Of a stretch of 64,000 nt of DNA, positions 27,580 to 41,850 are shown in pieces. Below the pieces are notes generated by a model. That model saw only the letters and a program-made list of their open reading frames with translations. It was not told the DNA's origin and ran no database searches. The DNA is from Chaetoceros tenuissimus (taxonomy: Eukaryota > Bacillariophyta > Thalassiosirophyceae > Chaetocerotales > Chaetocerotaceae). The stretch's first letter is position 1; the number at the start of each line of letters is the position of its first letter. The position numbers were made by a program, and so were the translations under genes. The stretch covers positions 3,618,819 through 3,682,818 of the forward strand of contig BLLK01000022.1 of the NCBI GenBank assembly GCA_021927905.1. Direction: 5' to 3'.

Positions 27580-27889
27580 CTTTTCATTGTCATCGATATC
27601 AAGGACACTCTTTTTTTTTAAAATCCGCGAAAGCCGTCAGCAACAAAATGTCGGAGTACAAACTGACGGCTTCAGTCGTGTTTACAAATGGATGGCTGTG
27701 GCTTGACCACATTCGATCGATTTCTATTTTTGGAGTTCTTTTGTGTTCTTCTCTAAGAGTTTCTATTTTGGAAGCTCGCCAACCACAGCACAGCATCTTC
27801 ACCTTTTCAGCATCATTTTTGCTCACTCCATCTTCTCATAATTTCATTTCTAATACATTTGAAACACATTACACAAATACATTTAAACA
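27580..27889. promoter_or_regulatory. shared divergent promoter, homoserine dehydrogenase / HSP70
   Basis: About 310 bp between divergent starts. It holds a perfect 10-bp inverted repeat (27631-27672) and several TTC and GAA triplets near 27735-27775. These are suggestive of, but do not form, a clean heat-shock element array. The AC-rich leader just before the HSP70 ATG is typical of a strongly expressed gene. Confidence 0.45.
27631..27672. repeat. perfect 10-bp inverted repeat
   Basis: AAGCCGTCAG at 27631-27640 and its exact reverse complement CTGACGGCTT at 27663-27672, separated by 22 bp. It lies 52 bp from the homoserine dehydrogenase ATG and about 218 bp upstream of the HSP70 ATG. It could be a dimeric transcription-factor site or an RNA hairpin in a 5' UTR. 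Confidence 0.6.
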
Positions 27890-28259
27890 ATGGCAGCAGT
27901 AACCGGAGAATCCGTAGGAATCGATCTTGGAACCACCTACTCCTGTGTAGGAGTATGGCAGAACGATCGTGTAGAAATCATTGCTAACGACCAGGGAAAC
28001 AGAACCACCCCTTCCTATGTTGCTTTCAACGAGACTGAGCGTCTCATCGGAGATGCAGCAAAGTCCCAGGCAGCTATGAATGCTACCAACACTGTATTCG
28101 ATGCTAAGCGTCTTATCGGAAGAGCATTCACTGACCCAGGTGTACAGTCTGACATGAAGCACTGGCCATTCAAGGTCGTCTCTGGAACCGGAGGAACACC
28201 AATTATCCAAGTAGAATACAAGGGAGAGACCAAGCAATTCAAGGCTGAGGAGATTTCTT

Positions 28260-28290
<31 letters not shown>

Positions 28291-29842
28291 AGAGGCTTAC
28301 CTTGGAAAGGAGGTTAAGAATGCTGTAGTTACCGTACCAGCTTACTTCAATGACTCTCAGCGTCAGGCTACCAAGGATGCTGGATCCATTGCTGGACTTA
28401 ATGTTCTTCGTATCATCAACGAGCCTACCGCAGCAGCTATTGCTTATGGACTTGACCAAAAGGGAGATGAGAAGAACGTACTCATCTTTGATCTTGGAGG
28501 AGGAACCTTTGATGTTTCTCTTCTCACCATTGAGGAGGGAATCTTTGAAGTAAAGGCTACCGCTGGAGATACTCACTTGGGAGGAGAAGATTTTGATAAC
28601 CGTATGGTTGACTACTTCCTCACTGACTTCAAGAGAAAGCACAGAAAGGATATGTCCCAGAACCAGAGATCTCTTCGTCGTCTTCGTACCGCTTGTGAGA
28701 GAGCAAAGAGAACTCTTTCCTCTTCCACCCAGGCACACATTGAGATTGACTCCCTCTTTGATGGAATTGACTACAATGCAACCATTACCCGTGCGAGATT
28801 CGAGGACTTGTGTCTTGACCAATTCAAGAAGTGCATGGACCCAGTTGAGAAGGTACTTCGTGATGCAAAGAGCTCCAAGGGAGCTGTTGATGAGATTGTT
28901 CTTGTAGGAGGATCCACCCGTATTCCAAAGGTACAATCCATGCTTTCCGAGTTCTTCAATGGAAAGGAACCATGTAAGTCCATCAACCCAGATGAGGCTG
29001 TTGCATACGGAGCTACTGTACAGGCAGCTATCCTTTCTGGACAAGACAAGTCTGAGAAGCTTTCTGAGCTTCTTCTTCTTGATGTAACTCCACTTTCCCT
29101 TGGACTTGAGACCGCAGGAGGAGTTATGACCACTCTTATCAAGAGAAACACCACTGTTCCAGCTAAGAAGACCCAGACCTTCTCCACCTACGCTGATAAC
29201 CAGCCAGGAGTACTCATTCAGGTATTCGAGGGAGAGCGTTCCATGACCCGTGATAACAACCTTCTTGGAAAGTTCAACCTTGATGGAATCCCACCTATGC
29301 CTCGTGGACAGCCACAAATTGATGTATGCTTCGATATCGATGCTAACGGTATCTTGAATGTATCTGCTATCGAGAAGTCTACTGGAAAGGAGAACAAGAT
29401 TACCATTACCAACGATAAGGGACGTCTTTCCCAAGAGGAGATTGAGCGCATGGTTCAAGAGGCTGAGAAGTACAAGGCTGAGGATGATGCTAACAAGAAC
29501 CGTATTGAGGCTAAGAATGGACTTGAGAACTACTGTTACTCTCTCAAGACTTCCATCTCTTCCCCAGAGGTTGAAGGAAAGATCCCAGCTGATGACAAGA
29601 CCAAGCTTGAGGGAGCTATCGATGAGACTCTTCAGTGGCTTGACTCCAATCTTTCTGCAGAGAAGGAAGAGTTCGAGGAGAAGCAGAAGGCACTTGAGGC
29701 AATCGCTATGCCAATCCTTCAGGCTATGGGAGGAGCTGGAGCTGCTCCAGGAGGTATGCCAGACATGGGAGGAGCTGCACCAGGTGGAGCACCACCAGCT
29801 GATGATCCTGCTGACGGACCAACTATTGAGGAGATCGATTAA
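27890..29842 (+). CDS. HSP70: cytosolic HSP70 chaperone
   Basis: Single exon, 650 aa, the usual length. The ATPase domain begins [14 protein letters not shown] and includes [14 protein letters not shown] and [13 protein letters not shown]. The substrate-binding domain begins near residue 395 ([19 protein letters not shown]). An alpha-helical lid (about 510-610), a Gly/Ala/Pro-rich linker and the C-terminus IEEID follow. The ending is EEID rather than the EEVD that binds TPR co-chaperones in most cytosolic HSP70s. Codon use is strongly biased (GGA for Gly, GAG, AAG), as expected of a highly expressed gene. The lid-coding part (29509-29707) is copied in the large gene at 35344-41850. Confidence 0.98.
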
Positions 29843-30642
29843 GCGGTGTAATAATTTTGCAATACCTTGTTTATAAGTATAACTTGTAATATAATCGAAT
29901 TTTCATAGAACTATTTCTTAGTAGCTTAGTATGCAATTTGCATTTAGAATTACCCATCCTCTTGTACTAGAAAGTAGACACAGTTTCAATTCAAGGGTTT
30001 CCATCACAAAATCACCGAATTTGCCTTCTTCAAATTTCCAAAATTCATGCTTTGCGGTAAATTCAAATATTTTTAAAAATAAAAACAAGAGAAGAGGATA
30101 AATGAATTGAATATGTTTGGATTCCTTTGAAGACAGGAGCAAAGAGTTGTACTATTCGATCCTTCATAACTCTCTATTATTCAGTCCATCAGTGTCAATT
30201 GTGTGATTGCACTCTGAAACCAGTAAAATACTTCATTGATTGGACATGACTGTTCCATAAGGTTCACAGCATTCTCTAATGCTTTCAGGATATTCCTTTA
30301 CTTTTTGCCTCTGTTTTATTATTTTTAAAACTCAAACAAAAAGGATTTTTGAAACTCTGAATGGGACTGAGTTGATCATTGATGGACCGCCTCTTTCTGT
30401 GTCACGAACATCAATTTTTTTTCTCTGTCCATACCTATCTACTTTTTCAGTAATTTCCGAAACCACTATCTTCTCAATCAAGAGAGAGGCAGCGAGCGTG
30501 TCGGTAATAAACAAATTGCATAGTAGAAGCGAGGACGGCAGCAGTGAACAAGCAAGTCATCCAAATTCTTACCTACTTAGATTGCATCCATCAAAACATA
30601 CCTCGTCATTGATATTCTTCACAAATAGGAATTACCTGAATC
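29843..30642. other. intergenic, HSP70 3' region and gene A promoter
   Basis: About 800 bp. The left part is AT-rich HSP70 3' flank. The right 117 bp (30526-30642) is the conserved leader shared with gene B. No gene was recognised in between; the 134-aa frame at 30279-30683 has no domain signal. Confidence 0.5.
30526..30642 (+). promoter_or_regulatory. duplicated leader upstream of gene A
   Basis: Aligns without gaps to 35227-35343 (offset 4701 bp) with only about seven differences in 117 bp. It begins GAAGCGAGGACGGCAG and ends directly at the ATG. It is probably 5' UTR plus core promoter. It is more alike than the coding sequence that follows. Confidence 0.65.
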
Positions 30643-33600
30643 ATGTCATCTGTTGCCTATTCAGAGCTCAAAAGAGCAGCTAAGTCTCTTCTTGATCAAA
30701 ACCTAGAACCGACTTTGGAAGCATTTCAACATTACTTTCCACATGTTGTCAAGGACGATCTACAGTATGCATCTGTTAAAAATGAAGTGGATTGGTTCAA
30801 ATGCAAACACCTAGTAAGACAGCGGGAGAAAGGTGTTGATGTAGCTTTGGTTCCTTTTCAAAGGCCAAAAACTGATACAGCTATTCGCAAGAAATCTAGG
30901 AAAAGAGCAGCTCATCGTGTGATTCCATCATTGAGAAATGAAGATGCATCCTTGACCTCACTTAACAGTTGTAGTGCTATCGGTTCCAAACACAATCAGG
31001 AACTAGATAATGCCAATGCGCCATTAGAAGGAAAGAGCAGAGAATGCAATATTTCCCCGCTTCCTAAGAAGCAGAAGAATGTGTCCATTTCACAAGAAGA
31101 GCATAATGATGATGAAGAATCACCACTTGAAACAAGAACAACATCGGAAGATACATGTGATAACTCTTTAGTCGTCAAAAAAGGGCAATCCAATGTTTCT
31201 CTTGGTACTTCCACCGAATCAAATTTAGACGAGACGATCAAACTCCGTGCTAAACGCTCAAAACCTCGAATGGAAGAAAAAAATCTGAGTCCACCTCCTT
31301 TTAGTAAATCTATTTTGAATATACAAGAATCGACAAGCGAAGCTTCTCCTCCAACTTTAAACAGTCATACAGATGATAATTCATCATCAGATAAAGCTGG
31401 TGCAACGGATGATACTGATAAGAGAGTAAATATTCATACAGACTGCAATGTACTTGCAACTGCAGCAACAGAGAAAAACCATTCTCCAGATGCCATCGAA
31501 GAGACCAGAGAAGATTTGTTGGACTCCTCGTTTCGACACGACCAGAACAATACCTACTCAACCGCTTCAACAAATGAATCTGAGACACGATTAGACTCTA
31601 TGACCAACGAATTCATGACATGCTTTGGATTTGAAGAAAATAACAACTTGAATGCTAGTTCAGCTTGTCAATACGAGTCTGCTACGAACATTTTGCCAGT
31701 AAGTTTATGCTTTGATCTACATAATTTTTGATTTCAAATCACTACAAGAACTAAATTTTATAATGTTCCGATTAGAGTGATGACATGTCGGATGAATTGG
31801 AGATTGGACCTTTACCCAGCTTTGATGAATCTAGTGACACTGTTGTAGATGATAGTTCGGGTCTTGTACATCGTCATTACACTAGTCTAGACGTTACAAC
31901 TATGAGTGCTACTAGTTCTAGAGCATCCACGGAAGCAAATGTTAATACTTCCATCATTGCTGAGACTCCTGTCTTGAATGAATTGGATGATCCTTTAATG
32001 CAATTGATGCAAGGTGTAGATGATTCTATGGCAAATGCTTCATTGGAATCCCACAACAGCTTAGAAACGACTAGTATCACTACTAATCCGGAGATTGCCA
32101 ACACTTCCCTTAACACAACAGCCCATCCTCGTGAAGAAGTCAATATTACTGAGAAAAAAACAGTTGCAAATTCTCAAAAAGCAAAAGATGATGAGACTAA
32201 TCTGACTTTGGTGCAAGCTCAAGTAGGTGACTTTGCTGCTACAACTACAACAAATGAGAGGGATGTTGAAAAGGAAACGAATACCGAAAGTAAGTCTGGT
32301 TCGATGATGTCAACTGCAACCAACAACACTGTGAATATGGATGGGGATCAACCCTTTGAGGCACCTGTACGTTTTCTCAAACGTAATGATGCAAAGGCAT
32401 TTGAAAAGGTCAAGAATATAATTCAAGCAATGGTGGATGAAGGTATCGAACACACAGGAATAGAGTTCCGCAAAAAGTATCCATCAATGACAAGTAAATA
32501 CGAGAGATCAACTTTGTCAGTTGCAATTCGCAATTTTACTCGCCAAAAAGAACAGCAATTGGAAAAGCAGCGCAACCAAAAGATTAGAAGAGAAATGATA
32601 AACAATTCTCAAACGCATCCACAGATGCACCAGGATTATTTTTCGCCTCACATGCATGCATTCCACCAACATTCTGCTATGGACCCTACATATATGTACA
32701 ATCAAACAGCACCAATTGATCCTAGGACAAATATACTTCCTGGACCTGTAGGTTTCGGTCATCCTCCGCGTGTTTACAATGGTGACTATGGGTACACAAT
32801 GCCTCATGCATTTCCTGGTCCTGTAGGCTTCGATCCTCCTCCATATGTTTACAATAGTGACTATCGGTACACAATGCCTCGTGCGCATATGGATAGCGCA
32901 AATGATGTTTCTAAGCCATCCAAGATGAGGTATGAAGTAACAGAAGGACAAAATAATTACTCTCATAATGAGAGTAATATTCAAGAGTATGTAGAAAGTC
33001 GACAGATTAGTAATAAGCCTCTCAATGTAAAAGGATCTCAACATGACGAAAAGGATGTATGCAATAGTGACAATAATTGCTCTCCTAATGAGAATAATAC
33101 TGAAGAGTATGCAGAAAGTCTGCAGATTAGCAATGAGCCTCTCAATACAAAAGGTTCTCAACATGACGAGAAGGACGTATACAGTAGCGATGAGAGCTTA
33201 GACGACGACACCATAATCGATGTTATTCGAACAGCTGATCCCTATGGGGAGAAGTATGAGGCACAGGAGAAACATAAGGAGGTTGAGGCTCTTCTTACAG
33301 ACTCTGTCGAGTCTAACCTCGGTCAAGAAGTAACTAACAACGATGAACAACATCGCAGCGTTACTATTCATGAAATTACTAAGGATGGAGGGAAAGGAAA
33401 GCGTATTGCTCACGATGATGGAAATGAACAATCGAGTTCTAATGATAGAGACGATCACCTTGATAAAGAGATATCATCCAAATCTCCTCGAGACGGAGTG
33501 AACACTTCTGATTCCACGAAGCCAAGAACAAGCATCGATAGTGCGCTTACGGAGATGCCCTCTAAGGAAATTGCTTGTGAAGAGACCAATGATGATGAAG

Positions 33601-34574
33601 CTCATTTGCAGCACTTAGAAGCCAACATTGATCATGCAATGGTCGATGAGAGTGTTGAAACTTCAGCAGGAAAGTTTTCGGAAAATGCTGTGGAGGTTGG
33701 AGAAAAGAATGAAGTAGTTTGTCTTGATAATGAAACTAGTTCTAATCAAAGTGAGAATCACACCCGCAAGAACATAGAATCATTTATTATGAAGTCCGGA
33801 GGGAAGACAAGCAGTGATCGAGACCAAAAATCAACCGATATTGATCAACAATACAATGGTTGTGTAGATGATATTGCTAGACAGAGCGAGATAATTTTCC
33901 TTGGTGACGATGATGATGATGATGATGATGATCAAGAATCTACTAGCCAACGAGATAAAGATGCTAATTTCGAAATTGAAGAATCCACCACTTCTGGAAG
34001 TAAGAAAGACTCTATTTTTTGTGAGAGTGACTCAGACTCTGAAGTATCCATCATCCGCAAAGTTATAGACTTGGACACTGCTACTGGAAGTAAGAAAGAC
34101 TCTATTTTTGTTGACAGTGACTCTGAAGAATCTACCTTCAACCAAGACAAAGATGATGATTTCGGAAATAAAGAACCTCACGAAATTGCTACTGGAAGTA
34201 AGAATAGGACAAACAATGAAGATTCTACACAGTCAACAGGTTACCCAAACTCGACGCATCAATGTACGTCAAAGGAATCAAATACTGGTGAAACTGCAGC
34301 AACCGTACAGAGGAAGGTCTTTGACGAGTTGCTCAAACGCAAGGCAATATCACTAGCAGATTTGATCTTTGAAATCATAGCACTCAGTAGCAACTGGTTA
34401 GAATGTCAAGAGTACGCTGAGAAGCTCATCAAGCTTGGATTTTACGATGAAAAGATGATGAAGGACTTTTGCAAAGTAGAGATTGTTGATTCCAAGCAAT
34501 TCGCATCGTTTATGAAAGTGGAACATCGTTTAGCTTTGAAGAAATGGGTGCTAGAGAATGGGACATACAAGTGA
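30643..34574 (+). CDS. gene A: large acidic repeat protein, tandem paralogue
   Basis: Exons 30643-31698 and 31776-34574, a 77-bp phase-0 intron, 1284 aa. The N-terminal domain (about 1-90: SSVAYSELKRAAKSLLD, FQHYFPHVVKDDL, VDWFKCKH) is paralogous to gene B. A long Ser/Thr/Asn/Asp-rich, probably disordered region follows. A single copy of the module that gene B has multiplied lies near nt 32370-32560 (FLKRNDAKAFEKVKNIIQA, FRKKYPSMTSKYERSTLS). Small internal tandem repeats (periods 75 and 120 bp) and a nine-Asp run come next. A SAM-like helical C-terminus (LECQEYAEKLIKLGFYD, KQFASFMKVEHRLALKKW) ends the protein. There is no signal peptide. Function is unknown; a scaffold or chromatin-associated role is only a guess. 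Confidence 0.8.
32745..32894 (+). repeat. 75-bp tandem duplication in gene A
   Basis: Two adjacent copies of a 75-bp unit (25 aa) beginning CCTGTAGG at 32745 and 32820. Each encodes a Pro/Tyr-rich stretch with VYN and YTMP. In-frame expansion. Confidence 0.6.
32951..33190 (+). repeat. 120-bp tandem duplication in gene A
   Basis: Two copies of a 120-bp (40-aa) unit with aligned AATAATT starts at about 32951 and 33071, both coding for EYxESxQISNxPLN and KGSQHDEKDV. They remain clearly alignable but are diverged at many positions. Confidence 0.65.
33906..33932 (+). repeat. GAT trinucleotide run (poly-Asp)
   Basis: GAC followed by eight GAT codons, giving nine Asp residues within gene A. Confidence 0.8.
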
Positions 34575-35226: not shown

Positions 35227-35343
35227 GAAGCGAGGACGGCAGCAGTGAACAAGCAAGTCATACAAGTTCTTACTTACATAGATTGCATCCATCAAAACAT
35301 ACCTCGTCATTGATAATCTTCATAAATAGGAATTACCTGAATC
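35227..35343 (+). promoter_or_regulatory. duplicated leader upstream of gene B
   Basis: Gapless counterpart of 30526-30642, about 94 percent identical by eye, ending at the ATG of gene B. Probable 5' UTR and core promoter retained since the gene duplication, or homogenised by conversion. Confidence 0.65.
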
Positions 35344-38300
35344 ATGTCATCAGTTGCCTATTTAGAGCTCAAAAGAGCAACTCAGTCTCTTCTTGATCGA
35401 AACCTAGAACCGACTTTGGAAGCATTTCAACATTACTTTCCACATATTGTCAAGGACGAGCTACATTATGCATCCATTGCCGACCTCGTGGATTGGCTGA
35501 AGCACAAATACATAGAAGAGCAGCGGCAGATGGGCATCGAAGTGGCTTTGGTTCCTTTTCAAAGATCAGAAACTGATACAGCTATTCGCAAGAAATCTAG
35601 GAAAAGAGCAGCTAACCGTGTGAGTCTATCACCGAGAAATGAAGATACATCCAATGACTCACGTCGAGGATGCAATGACAACGGAGAGAGACGAGCTATG
35701 GAAGTAGTTTTAGGATTTGCACATGAAGGGGAATGTGATAGAGAGTGTATAGCTATGGAAGAGAGCAAGAGCGCTTGTGAAATTCTTACTGCTGGTAACA
35801 ATAGAAAGATGAGAAAGATTTCGCTTGATTCTTCAACTGGCACCTTTCCTACACATGAATCCACTGAAGAAATACATATTGCGTCAAACAAAGCAGGTGA
35901 TGAAAAATTATCAAGTGAATCTAGGGGAAATGATTCTAATAAAGTACTCGATGCTACTGTGTCTATTTTACCGATCGAGAAGAGAGAAACTCACATGATT
36001 GCCAGCAACTCTACTGATCCATTGGATGAATCAGTTGAAGTGGCAGCAAATAATTTAGGAATACAAAACAGTGCACAGTCTCAAGGAAAATTTAGTGCAG
36101 AAGTAGATACAATTCTGTTTCCTTTCTCTGTTGAGCAAAGAAATAACAAGACACTTCGTGGCACCCTGACGGTATCTCCGAATGATCCAGAGGCGGAAAA
36201 TGGGGTTTGTCCAGTAACACCAGCAGATGATGAGTCATCGCTAGGTTCCAGGAGAGTTCAAGCTGCGGACACGCAAGATGAGTCTGTCAAGAAAAGAAAA
36301 GGTGAAGAGGTTAGTAATAGTGCTGATGCTGAACTTGCACAGGATCAACAGTTACGCAAGAAGACCAAACTTCGTATCAAGATTTCAAAACCTCACATGA
36401 AGAAAAAACAGTTCGATAAAGTTTCTGCCGACAATTCTAATGTGAATATGGAAGCACCTGTTAAGGAAGGCCCTTCTGGTATTTCAAATGATTGCGTAGA
36501 TATAATTGCAGAGTTGAAATCAACAAGCAGAGGAAGCATCTATTCTCAAAATACTACTGAAATGGCCAACGATGATTTATTAGACCCTTCAATTCTACTG
36601 AGAAAGGAAAGCGCACAATCTACTTTAGGCACAAACGATTCTGATGAACAATTAGGCACTTTGATCAACAATCCAATGCTACATTCCGAAAAGGATGAAG
36701 AAAGAAATACGATTACTGGCTCAAATCAACAGCAAAAGTCTGCAAGCAGCATTTCAAATGTAAGTACATAAGGTTTTGATCACTGGTACACATCTTTGCA
36801 AGCTCTTAATCTGACCAGCCTTTATTGTTCTAATACTATTATCACTATAAATGACTTTAATCTTCCAAAGTCTCCACACAGCGAGTTATCATTCAAACCT
36901 ATCCATTTCAAAAAAGCAAATGATAGAGAAGGATATTTGAAAGTCAAGGAGATTATTCAAGGAATGATGGATGAAGGAATCCAACGCCCAGCTAGCGAGT
37001 TCTACGAAAAGTATCCAGAGCTGTCAAGCAAGTATGAGAAAGGCAGTCTATCAAAAGGAATTGCTGAAATCGTTCGTAGCTGCAAGACCAAGAAAGTAGC
37101 CGCGGAATGGAAAGAACAGTCAATATCACATCCTCAACATGAAGCAAAAGGGAGGCCTCTTATTCCTTTCACGAAAGTAAATGACGAAGAAGGATACATG
37201 AAGGTCAAGGAGATTATTCAAGGAATGATTGATGAAGGCATCCAACACCCAGCTAGCAAGTTCTACGAGAGGTATCCAGAGCTGACAAGCAAGTATGAAA
37301 AAAGAAGTTTTTCACATGGAATTGCTAAAATCGTTGGTACATGCAAGGCTAAGAAAGCAGCCAAGGACTGGAAAGAACAGTCAATATCACATCCTCATGA
37401 CGAAGCAAAAAATAGGCTTCCTATCCCTTTCATGAAAGCAAACGACGAAGAAGGATACTTGAAGGTCAAGAAGATCGTTGAAGGATTGATTGATGAAGGA
37501 AACCAACACCCAGCTAGCGAGTTCTACGAAAAGCATCCAGAGCTGACAAGCAAGTATGAGAAAAGCAGTCTCTCGAATGGAATTTCTAATTTTTCTAGGA
37601 GATACAAGGCTGAGAAGAATGCTTCAGTAGGAAATAAAGAATCGACTTCAACTGCTCAGGACGACGCCTCCAAAGATCTGCAAATTGAGGATTCATTGGA
37701 GGCATGTCAAGATACAGGTACTTTGCACGTCGAGTTGCCTGTCAAGCCTATCCATTTAAAAAAAACAAATGATAGAGAAGGATACTTGAAGGTCAAGGAG
37801 ATTATTGAAGGAATGGTTGATGGAGGAATCCAACACCCAGCTAGCGAGTTCTACGAGAGGTATCCAGAGCTGGCAAGGAAGTATGAGAAAAGCAGTCTAT
37901 CAAAGGCAATTTCTAGTTTTTCTAGTAATTACAAGGCTAAGAAGGATGCTTTAGCAGGAAGTAAGAATTTGACTTCAACTGCTCAGGACGACGCCTCTAT
38001 ACATCCGCATATTGATGATACATTGAAGGCATGTAAGGACAATGACACCATGCATGTCGAGTTGCCCTTCAAGCCTATCCCTTTCAAAAAGGCAAATGAC
38101 ATAGACGGCTTCGTGAAGGTCAAGGAGATTATTGAAGGAATGATTGATAAAGGAATCCAACACCCATCTAGCAAATTCTACGAGAAGTATCCAGAGCTGA
38201 CAAGCAAGTATGAGAAAAGCAGTTTATCAATGGCAATTTCTAGTTTTTCTAGGAGATACAAGACTGAGAAGGATGCTTTAGCAGGAAATAAATATTTGAC

Positions 38301-41300
38301 TTCCACTGCTCAGGACGACGACACCTCTAAACATCCGCATATTGAGGATTCGTTGGAAGCATGTCAAGGTAATGATACTTTACACAGTGAGTTGCCATTC
38401 AAACCTATCCATTTCAAAAAAGCAAACGACAAAGAAGGATACTTGAAGGTCAAGGAGATCATTGAAGGAATGGTCGATGATGGAGTCCAAAATCCAGCTA
38501 GCGAGTTCTATGAAAAGTATCCAGAGCTGACAAGCAAGTATGAGAAAAGCAGTCTATCAGTAGGAATTGGTAGTTTTATTCATGCTAAGAAAACAGCCAA
38601 TTCGCATATTGAGGAATCATTGAAGGCAGGTCAAGATAATGATACTATGCATGTTGAGTTGCCCGTCACGCCTATTCATTTTACGAAAGCAAATGACGAA
38701 GAAGGATACATGAAAGTCAAGGAGATTATTCAAGAAATGATGGATGAAGGAATCCAACGCCCAGCTAGCAAATTCTATGAAAAGTATCCAGAGCTGTCAA
38801 GCAAGTATGAGAAAAGTAGTCTTGTAGTAGTAATTGCTAAATTCGTTCGTAGCTACAAGACCAAGAAAGCAGCCGCGGAATGGAAAGAACAGTCAATATC
38901 ACATCCTCAACATGAAGCAAAAAATAGGCTTCCTATCCCTTTCACGAAAGTAAATGACGAAGAAGGTTTCATGAAGGTCAAGGAGATTATTCAAGGAATG
39001 ATTGATGAAGGAATCCAACACCCAGCTAGCAAGTTCTACGAGAGGTATCCAGAGCTGTCAAGCAAGTATGAAAAAAGAAGTTTTTCACATGGAATTTCTA
39101 GTTTTTCTAGTAATTACAAGGCTAAGAAGAAGGCTTCAGTAGGTAATGAATATTTGACTTCCACTGCTCAGGACGACGACGCCTCTAATCATCTGCATAT
39201 TGAGGATTCATTGAAGGCAGGTCAAGATAATGATACTATGTCTGTCGAGTTGCCTGTCAAGCCTATCCATTTCAAAAAGGCAAATGACGAAGAAGGTTTC
39301 ATGAAGGTCAAGGAGATTATTGAAGGAATGATTAATGAAGGAATCCAATACCCAGCTAGCGAGTTCTACAAGAAATATCCAGAGCTGACAAGCAAGTATG
39401 AAAAAAGCAGTTTATCAATGGCAATTTCTCATTTTTCTACTAATTACAAGGCTAAGAAGGATGCTTTAGCAGGAAATAAATATTTGACTTCCACTGCTCA
39501 GGACGACGATGCCTCTAAACATCTGCACATTGAGGATTCATTGAAGGCAGGTCAAGATACAGGTACCATGCATGCCAAGTTGCCTGTCAAGCCTATCCAT
39601 TTCAAAAAAGCAAACGACGAAGAAGGTTTCATGAAGGTCAAGGAGATTATTGAAGGAATGATTGATGAAGGAATCCAATACCCAGCTAGCGAGTTCTACA
39701 AGAGGTATCCAGAGCTGTCAAGCAAGTATGACAGAAGCAGTCTATCATCTGGAATTTCTCATTTTTCTACTAATTACAGGGCTAAGAAGTATGCTTTAGC
39801 AGGAAATAAATATTTGACTTCCACTGCTCAGGACGACGATGCCTCTAAACATCCGCATATTGAGGATTCATTGAAGGCAAGTCAAGATACAGGTACCATG
39901 CATGCCAAGTTGCCTGTCAAGCCTATCCATTTCAAAAAAGCAAACGACGAAGAAGGTTTCATGAAGGTCAAGGAGATTATTGAAGGAATGATTAATGAAG
40001 GAATCCAATACCCAGCTAGCGAGTTCTACAAGAGGTATCCAGAGCTGTCAAGCAAGTATGACAGAAGCAGTCTATCATCTGGAATTTCTCATTTTTCTAC
40101 TAATTACAGGGCTAAGAAGTATGCTTTAGCAGGGAATAAATATTTGACTTCCACTGCTCAGGACGACGATGCCTCTAAACATCCGCATATTGAGGTAAAA
40201 TATGCCACTCTTCAAGATGAAGCTGAAACACAATTTCCATGTGATGCGGAAGTCGGTAAAGCTAACGTCTCCGAAAATATGTCGCCACTCAAACAAGCCA
40301 AATCTCTAGCTGCACCAGTAGACACGGACATTCAACCCAGGCTTAACCTACAAAATGTAGAAATTGACCTAGATGACCCTGCTGTCCTTGCCCAATTCGT
40401 GGGGGAATCTGAACTTTTGGATGCAAATGACAGACAATATATTCCAGATTACATCTTTTTGAGTATGGCCCAACTCAAATCATGCTACGTCACACCACTG
40501 GATAGAAGTAATGGAGCTTACAAATCTCGTCAAATTGGATTCAAGGGAATGTGCTGCAAACATTGTGGGGGAGAGCCGGGTTTTGGAAGATACTTTCCTG
40601 AAACACTCAGAAGTTTGTCACAGACTACCACCTCTCAGACCATTGTCAAGCATATTGCGTACAAGTGCCGAAAGGTTCCCAAGAAGATCCAAAATAGTGT
40701 CAGAGTTTTGAAAGAGCTTCAAGAAAGAAAGGATGAACTTGCCAAACAGAATCAGAGATCTAGATCTGAAGAGAGACCAAGGGGCTCGAAAAAGGTGTTC
40801 TTTCAGAGATTGTGGAGTAGATTACATGAAGAGCAGACTGTCAGTGGACATGGACATGCTTTTGACATTACAGGGGAGAACAAGAAACCACAGGGGATGG
40901 CGCACTGTGCAAAGAAATCTATTGAAGAGCAAGACGCCATTGTCAGCATGATGAAACTTGCAACAACAACAACCACCGCCAATTCGCCTCAACGGCTAAA
41001 CAGCACTTCTACTGCTCTAATGAATGCAAGGAATGTTCAAGGAGACGCAACATCTTCGCGTAATTCAACAAATATAGAGCAGATCTTCAAGCCAATCCAC
41101 TTCAACAAAGCAAATGATGAAGTAGGGTTTCTAAAGGTCAAGGATAATATTCATGGTATGATGGATGAAGGAGTAGAAGATCCCCAGAAGGAATTCTTCC
41201 AAAAGCACCCATCTTTAGCAAACAAGCACGAGAAAAATAGTATGCTTCATGTCAAGGCTAAGAATGGACTTGAGAACTATTGTTACTCACTCAAGACATC

Positions 41301-41850
41301 CATCTCTTCCCCAGAGGTTGAAGGAAAGATCCCAGCTGATGACAAGACCAAGCTTGAGGGAGCTATCGAGGAGACTCTTCAGTGGCTTGACTCCAATCTT
41401 TCTGCAGAGAAGGAAGAGTTCGAGGAGAAACAGAAGGCACTTGAAGCAATAGCTGCACCATTGTTGGAATATTTGAAAGCGTCAGAGACTGAAAAGAGCG
41501 TTGACAATGAAGAACCAAAGTCCACGAATCAATGTATTGATAAAATTGCAGCATCAGAACAGAGCAAGCCTATCCAAATCACCGAGCTCAATAAGTTCCT
41601 CGAGGATAAAGCAACATCACTAGCAGAATGGATCTTTATTGAAATCATCAAATTCAATTCTGCAAATGTCATGTTAGAGTGCAAAGAGTACGCTGAAGAG
41701 CTCATCAAGCTTGGATTTTACGACAAAGAGATGATGAAGAACTTTTGCACAGTGGACATTGTTGATTCAGAAGACTTTACATCATTTATGAAATTGGCGC
41801 ATCGTCTGTCTTTGAAGAAATGGTTGTTGGAGCATGGGGCATCCAAATGA
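35344..41850 (+). CDS. gene B: giant modular repeat protein with captured HSP70 segment
   Basis: Exons 35344-36759 and 36871-41850, a 111-bp phase-0 intron, 2131 aa. The AG at 36870 is the only acceptor of those nearby that keeps the frame. Domains: an N-terminal paralogue domain shared with gene A (about 1-100); a disordered acidic region; eleven tandem modules (about 480-1580; consensus KANDEEGFMKVKEIIEGM, PASEFY, YPELSSKY); and a Cys-rich GRYFP domain (about 1640-1760; CCKHCGGEPGFGRYFPETL) with following SLSQTTTSQTIVKHI. A broken twelfth module (about 1878-1933) runs into an HSP70 lid segment (about 1934-2000). A SAM-like C-terminus (about 2045-2131) ends the protein. There is no signal peptide. 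Function is unknown. The modules resemble a DNA- or protein-binding helical repeat only by inference. Confidence 0.82.
36892..40196 (+). repeat. eleven tandem ~265-330-bp coding modules
   Basis: Units run from 36892 to about 40196. Each codes for a conserved ~55-aa core (IPF or IHF, KANDxEGxxKVKEII, PASxFYxxYPEL, SKYxxSSLS) plus a linker. Units 1-2 and 7-8 share a WKEQSISHP linker. Units 3-5 and 8-11 share a TSTAQDD linker. Units 9, 10 and 11 repeat at exactly 330 bp, and 10 and 11 are almost identical, so the expansion is recent. Gene A has one diverged copy. Confidence 0.88.
40440..40720 (+). other. Cys-rich GRYFP domain within gene B
   Basis: Encodes a domain with DYIFLSMAQL, then CCKHCGGEPGFGRYFPETL, SLSQTTTSQTIVKHI and KCRKVP. 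I recognise similar sequence as recurrent in diatom predicted proteins, where it is unnamed. The Cys/His spacing (Cys1700, Cys1701, His1703 and Cys1704 region, plus a later Cys) suggests zinc binding. It is absent from gene A. Confidence 0.6.
41256..41454 (+). repeat. in-frame copy of HSP70 lid-coding sequence
   Basis: Aligns without gaps to 29509-29707 of HSP70 (offset 11747 bp) with fewer than ten mismatches in 199 bp. Most are synonymous or cluster at the ends. It is in the same frame as HSP70 and codes for residues 540-606 of that protein (helical lid). It begins within module twelve of gene B, right after KHEKNSMLHV. Confidence 0.93.

Follow-up and report, generated by a model that had tools for sequence, protein, structure and literature searches.

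How did part of a chaperone gene come to lie inside a giant repeat gene, and when? The window considered here, a stretch of 64,000 nucleotides of the Chaetoceros tenuissimus genome (G+C 0.393), is the end of contig C16. It holds an HSP70 gene and two tandem members of a repeat gene family, genes C and B (Table 1). A preliminary description of this DNA reported that a piece of HSP70 had been captured in frame by gene B, and read the high identity of this piece to HSP70 as a sign that the event is recent or is maintained by gene conversion. Comparisons across the whole genome (41.03 Mb, 68 contigs) indicate that the capture did occur, although earlier than the high identity would suggest.

Table 1. 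Coordinates of the features discussed, numbered from the first base of the window
Feature	Positions	Strand	Remarks
HSP70 gene	27890..29842	+	Single uninterrupted 650-codon frame; Pfam PF00012, E 3.3e-261
Donor segment in HSP70, helical lid bundle	29509..29707	+	Match to gene B, PDB lid matches, codon usage
Gene C, lid-less tandem relative of gene B	30643..34574	+	Two frames, probably two exons
Gene B exon 1	35344..36759	+	472 codons, followed by a GT donor at 36760; C48 has the homologous frame and splice donor
Gene B exon 2	36871..41850	+	1659 codons and a stop; phase matches exon 1
Gene B repeat units 1-11 and linkers	36898..40128	+	Approximate bounds
Second foreign segment in gene B, Cys/His-containing domain	40248..40902	+	85% identity to C14:682646-683321
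First part of repeat unit 12	41089..41241	+	
Site where gene B lacks 102 bp (34 codons) present in the C48 copies	41241..41242	+	In-frame gap between unit 12 and lid
HSP70 lid-derived segment in gene B	41256..41454	+	66 codons, residues 1935-2000 of predicted 2131; 192/199 to HSP70; place common to C48 copies
Linker and conserved family C-terminal domain	41455..41847	+	

The HSP70 segment in gene B

Alignment of positions 41200-41500 with HSP70, a check proposed in the preliminary description, confirmed the match: window 41256-41454 and HSP70 29509-29707 align without gaps, on the same strand and at an offset of 11747, with 192 of 199 bases identical (seven differences, where fewer than ten had been announced), and identity drops to background level on both sides of the tract. 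The HSP70 reading frame is kept inside gene B, as had been claimed, and the piece encodes 66 codons with a single amino-acid difference from HSP70, D to E. Originally, the segment may have begun up to about 9 bases more to the 5' side. No other HSP70 part was found in gene B, the match being limited to HSP70 bases 1619-1818. The Pfam HSP70 model gave no match in the frames of gene B exons 1 and 2; it misses the captured fragment, so that domain surveys using this model would overlook such cases.

The exon model of gene B is predicted from the sequence, with a 111-bp intron whose splice sites are conserved on contig C48, where relatives of the gene are found (see below). Twelve repeat units are recognised by pattern, and the lid piece follows the first part of the twelfth. 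Pfam matches in the repeat region (eight families up to E = 1, the best being BTBD8_C at 2e-7, then Biotin_carb_N at 1.3e-5, none with a single passing stretch) were rejected as repeat artefacts, and a repeat-unit profile compared with the PDB gave four weak and uninformative matches, the best with E 0.0044 over 24 residues. A search of viral contigs for relatives returned 223 stretches that fit a pattern, none of them a relative.

Two side observations concern HSP70 itself. The gene of the window ends in EEID (29830-29842), the HSP70 gene on contig C54 in EEVD; and an antisense open reading frame of 529 codons runs over HSP70 (27869-29458, minus strand), probably as a by-product of its codon bias.

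Relatives with and without the lid

A DNA search of the whole genome with the gene B piece found the lid in five places: gene B, HSP70 (E = 1.5e-89) and three loci on contig C48, hereafter c416, c434 and c457. The corresponding protein search gave seven matches (nine candidates scored), adding two other HSP70 genes; with only 48-52% protein identity, these were ruled out as donors. In the joined 60-kb stretch of C48, no HSP70 match with E < 1 was found besides the three lids.

The three C48 loci are relatives of gene B in which the parts surrounding the lid come in the same order, and the lid occupies the identical place in all of them. On its 3' side, GCT followed by GCACC(A/G)TTGTT is present in gene B and the three C48 copies, versus ATGCCAATC in HSP70. 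On the 5' side, gene B and the C48 copies align with few differences, c457 staying HSP70-like for about 7 more bases. In two of the three C48 copies (within C48:411620-435130) exon 1 is interrupted by a stop at codon 329, c457 being open. One of these two, the first C48 relative, is additionally split in exon 2, where it has an early stop and an internal duplication of 1.4 kb. Near these genes, C48:426997-429783 is a tandem array of about eight 351-bp units that are at least 99.7% identical, with no open frame through the unit.

The C-terminal domain of the family was found in ten places, four of which (gene B and the three C48 copies) have the lid; the other six gave no match in the whole-genome lid protein search. 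Five of these six were read directly (gene C, one on C54, two on C34 and one on C16), the sixth being on C43. An exon-internal domain capture is expected to leave a donor elsewhere, relatives without the segment and a frame open across it, and all three are found here. A single capture on the branch leading to gene B and C48 is the simplest account of this distribution. In the DNA of the C-terminal domain, gene B has 90% identity to C48 but 78% to gene C, which places gene C outside; at the start of exon 1 gene B, gene C and C48 are equidistant (83-84% identity). A small protein tree of the C-terminal domain weakly joined the lid-less gene C to gene B (82/77), a grouping that would mean loss of the lid in gene C. 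Elsewhere, two open frames of 602 residues (C32:1425088 and C54:382723) each combine one gene B repeat unit with a different C-terminal region common to both.

The C48 copies also bear on where the segment begins. The 34 codons that they have and gene B lacks complete the repeat unit in C48, and a deletion in gene B is therefore the simplest reading. The earlier statement that the piece starts in the middle of unit 12 is correct in that it follows the first part of this unit; however, the HSP70 piece seems to begin there because gene B is without the 34 codons kept in C48, and the most plausible reading of the 102-bp gap is that gene B lost this part later, so that this point would not be the original capture junction. 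A microhomology at the junction, a short word common to the repeat units and HSP70 that had been seen by eye, was dropped, since by comparison with C48 the sequence adjacent to the lid on its 5' side in gene B follows a deletion. Of the normal SAM-like C-terminus described earlier, the conserved family domain stands, but it has no match to the Pfam SAM model up to E = 1.

Donor and age of the capture

Within the 199 bp, all seven differences between HSP70 and gene B are unique to gene B, HSP70 itself being unchanged. The three C48 lids have seven changes in common, with a further seven in c416/c434 and nine in c457. No derived change is common to B and C48, which implies either that the capture took place shortly before they split, or that HSP70 sequence once renewed the lid of the ancestor.

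Synonymous sites provide a relative clock, for which only c457 was used, the exon-1 comparison with c434 being set aside since its stop codon shifted the codon alignment. Outside the lid (exon 1, 5' and 3' flanks), 25.7% of synonymous sites differ between B and c457 (0.257). From this rate, 10.8 synonymous differences are expected in the lid and 13 were observed; on B's own lid branch, six silent changes were observed for 5.6 expected; and for c416, the synonymous count was 10.5 for 11.1 predicted. Ks between B and C48 is 0.29-0.40 in the lid and 0.24-0.35 in the flanks. As the lid counts fit the prediction from the rest of the gene, the lid is about as old as the B/C48 duplication, and a later conversion is not needed. 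The proposal that the event is recent or maintained by conversion is therefore not supported for the lid, which predates the B/C48 split.

The question arises as to why HSP70 did not change over the same period, the expectation being again 5.6 changes (P = 0.004 for none). Codon selection accounts for this: the effective number of codons (ENC) is 30.8 in HSP70 versus 46.7 in the rest of gene B exon 2, and it is 41.3-57.9 in 16 other open reading frames of the window, taken without intron check. All six silent changes in B's lid go toward codons that are rarer in HSP70, for example AAA (0 of 48), TCA (0 of 38) and ATA (0 of 42), and this identifies HSP70 as the donor. The preliminary description was thus right that gene B is a chimeric gene formed by local capture of an HSP70 segment. 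The high identity between the two lids follows from an HSP70 held unchanged here by strong codon bias, together with constraint on the lid protein in gene B.

Selection on the captured lid

Compared with HSP70, six of the changes in the B lid are synonymous and one is nonsynonymous but conservative (Ka/Ks 0.043), whereas the C48 lids have 9.5 (c416, Ka/Ks 0.57) and 9 (c457, Ka/Ks 0.32) nonsynonymous changes. The probability of at most one nonsynonymous change out of seven without selection is 0.0007, a test that rests on these seven changes, a small sample. In Fisher tests on rounded counts, the B lid differed from the c416 lid (P = 0.02) and from the flanks (P = 0.04), and not significantly from the c457 lid (P = 0.09). 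These sequence counts, small as they are, indicate that the lid is kept under purifying selection in gene B and is less constrained in the C48 copies.

Alternative explanations

The HSP70 gene, at a distance of 11.7 kb, could recently have overwritten the lid of gene B by gene conversion, the identity then reflecting exchange. The short distance and the common strand would favour such an event, as would the sharp edges of the tract, the lack of a derived change common to B and C48, and the smaller number of changes in the B lid (7 versus 14 and 16 in the C48 lids; P 0.19 and 0.09). Moreover, conversion seems able to act in this locus: over 117 upstream bases, genes B and C agree at 111 positions (94.9% identity, versus 79% to C48), and the first coding bases of the two genes contain patches of high identity (positions 30526-30951 and 35227-35652), so that conversion or homogenisation between the promoters of these tandem genes is likely. 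The lid does not need it, however. A recent conversion tract would have a synonymous divergence below that of its flanks; in the B-C48 comparison, lid Ks is similar to flank Ks, and the silent changes of the B lid fit the clock of the whole gene. The excess of changes in the C48 lids is nonsynonymous (1 in B versus 9-10), which points to relaxed selection there. We consider recent conversion improbable.

An artefact of assembly, by mis-join or by a collapsed haplotype, might be suspected from the position of the window at a contig end, and from the published assembly of strain NIES-3715, which is described as merged from haplotypes with a heterozygosity of 1.56% (PMC8613185). The 3.5% difference in the lid exceeds that value, and four loci, spread over two contigs, have the chimera in one and the same position; because these loci diverged by independent substitutions, an artefact is very unlikely. 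Finally, the lid of gene B may be neutral baggage in a decaying gene family rather than a domain that is kept. The exon 1 stop in two of the C48 copies and the elevated Ka/Ks of the C48 lids fit decay, but the B lid has accumulated a single nonsynonymous change beside its six synonymous ones, and gene B is open over 472 + 1659 codons. This last possibility is doubtful, less so than conversion.

We therefore retain, with a probability of about 0.8, a single in-frame capture of the HSP70 lid in the ancestor of gene B and the C48 copies, followed by duplication, drift of the copies and constraint in gene B. Some 199-208 bp of nearby HSP70 coding sequence would have entered one long exon in frame, behind the last repeat unit and ahead of the C-terminal domain, and the chimeric gene would then have been duplicated to the locus now on C48. 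HSP70 would have stayed unchanged under codon selection, the captured copies drifting off HSP70 codon usage, and gene B would later have undergone the 102-bp in-frame deletion between unit 12 and the lid. The insertion was presumably made at the DNA level, by break repair or template switching that would have copied the nearby HSP70 piece into the exon. Since the donor frame in HSP70 has no intron, an RNA intermediate is also possible.

A second foreign block

Gene B contains another segment, at 40248-40902, that also lies in frame and resembles unrelated sequence, in this case on contig C14. The C14 match covers 655 of 721 query bases; the bases just before 40248 match C48 instead, and the C48 relatives carry other sequence at the place of the block. 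Ks between B and C14 is 0.326 over the block, close to the B-C48 divergence. Counting the one in gene B, its Cys/His-containing domain is matched 29 times across the genome, and a Pfam search of the block named no family, the best hit being RHH_1 with E 0.28.

Fold and possible role of the captured lid

A 77-residue query (the 66 captured residues and the 11 that follow) matched 16 PDB sequences, all of them HSP70-type lids, with a best E of 1.2e-16. In the isolated human lid subdomain 2lmg, the match spans residues 3-73 of the 75-residue chain, and the captured piece supplies the first 66 of these; the segment thus encodes most of the helical bundle of the lid, and this match to an isolated lid suggests that it is most of an autonomously folding unit. 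In an AlphaFold2 model of 253 gene B residues built on four alignment rows (pTM 0.40 overall), the lid part (57-122) is mainly helical, with block pLDDT values of 74-92, a fair to good confidence. Helices are predicted at 46-72, across the junction, at 83-102 and at 108-121, and a helix of the recipient (123-136) comes directly after the piece; residues 136-253, the C-terminal part, are unreliable in the model.

With the ATPase and beta-sandwich parts absent, gene B does not encode an HSP70-type chaperone. Most likely, its lid would act as a folded module, for interaction or as a spacer, and would have no chaperone activity. A broader proposal is that the family takes whole folded modules from unrelated genes within one exon, the HSP70 lid and then the C14-like Cys/His domain, and that the lid is now a selected binding module contacting, for example, partners or regulators of HSP70; we regard this as rather unlikely.

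Comparison with known systems

Domain capture and chimeric genes are well-known phenomena, and gene B is an unusually clear exon-internal case of this known kind. Among the papers listed in a literature search none dealt with this chimera, which is not proof of absence. The case is of value as a new protein architecture that can be polarised and dated in relative terms, the donor, the recipient, its duplicates and lid-less relatives all being present in one genome. It also illustrates that a high identity between donor and copy need not imply a recent event: codon selection can hold the donor in place, and one branch alone then evolves.

The segment resembles the HSP70 lid helical bundle (PDB 2lmg, 3lof, 1ud0) in sequence over 66-73 residues and in its helices, which are predicted with fair to good confidence, whereas gene B differs from the HSP70 proteins in having neither the ATPase domain nor the beta-sandwich substrate domain. 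With gene conversion between neighbouring genes it shares a neighbouring, same-strand and highly identical tract; it differs in that this tract has diverged in step with the remainder of the gene. Finally, as in the domain gains surveyed in animals, a domain was gained from another gene, here without a new intron. In that survey (PMC2926785), gains are mostly terminal, with 71% at protein ends, whereas both gains in gene B are internal to a single 5-kb exon, and one of the donors lies 11.7 kb away.
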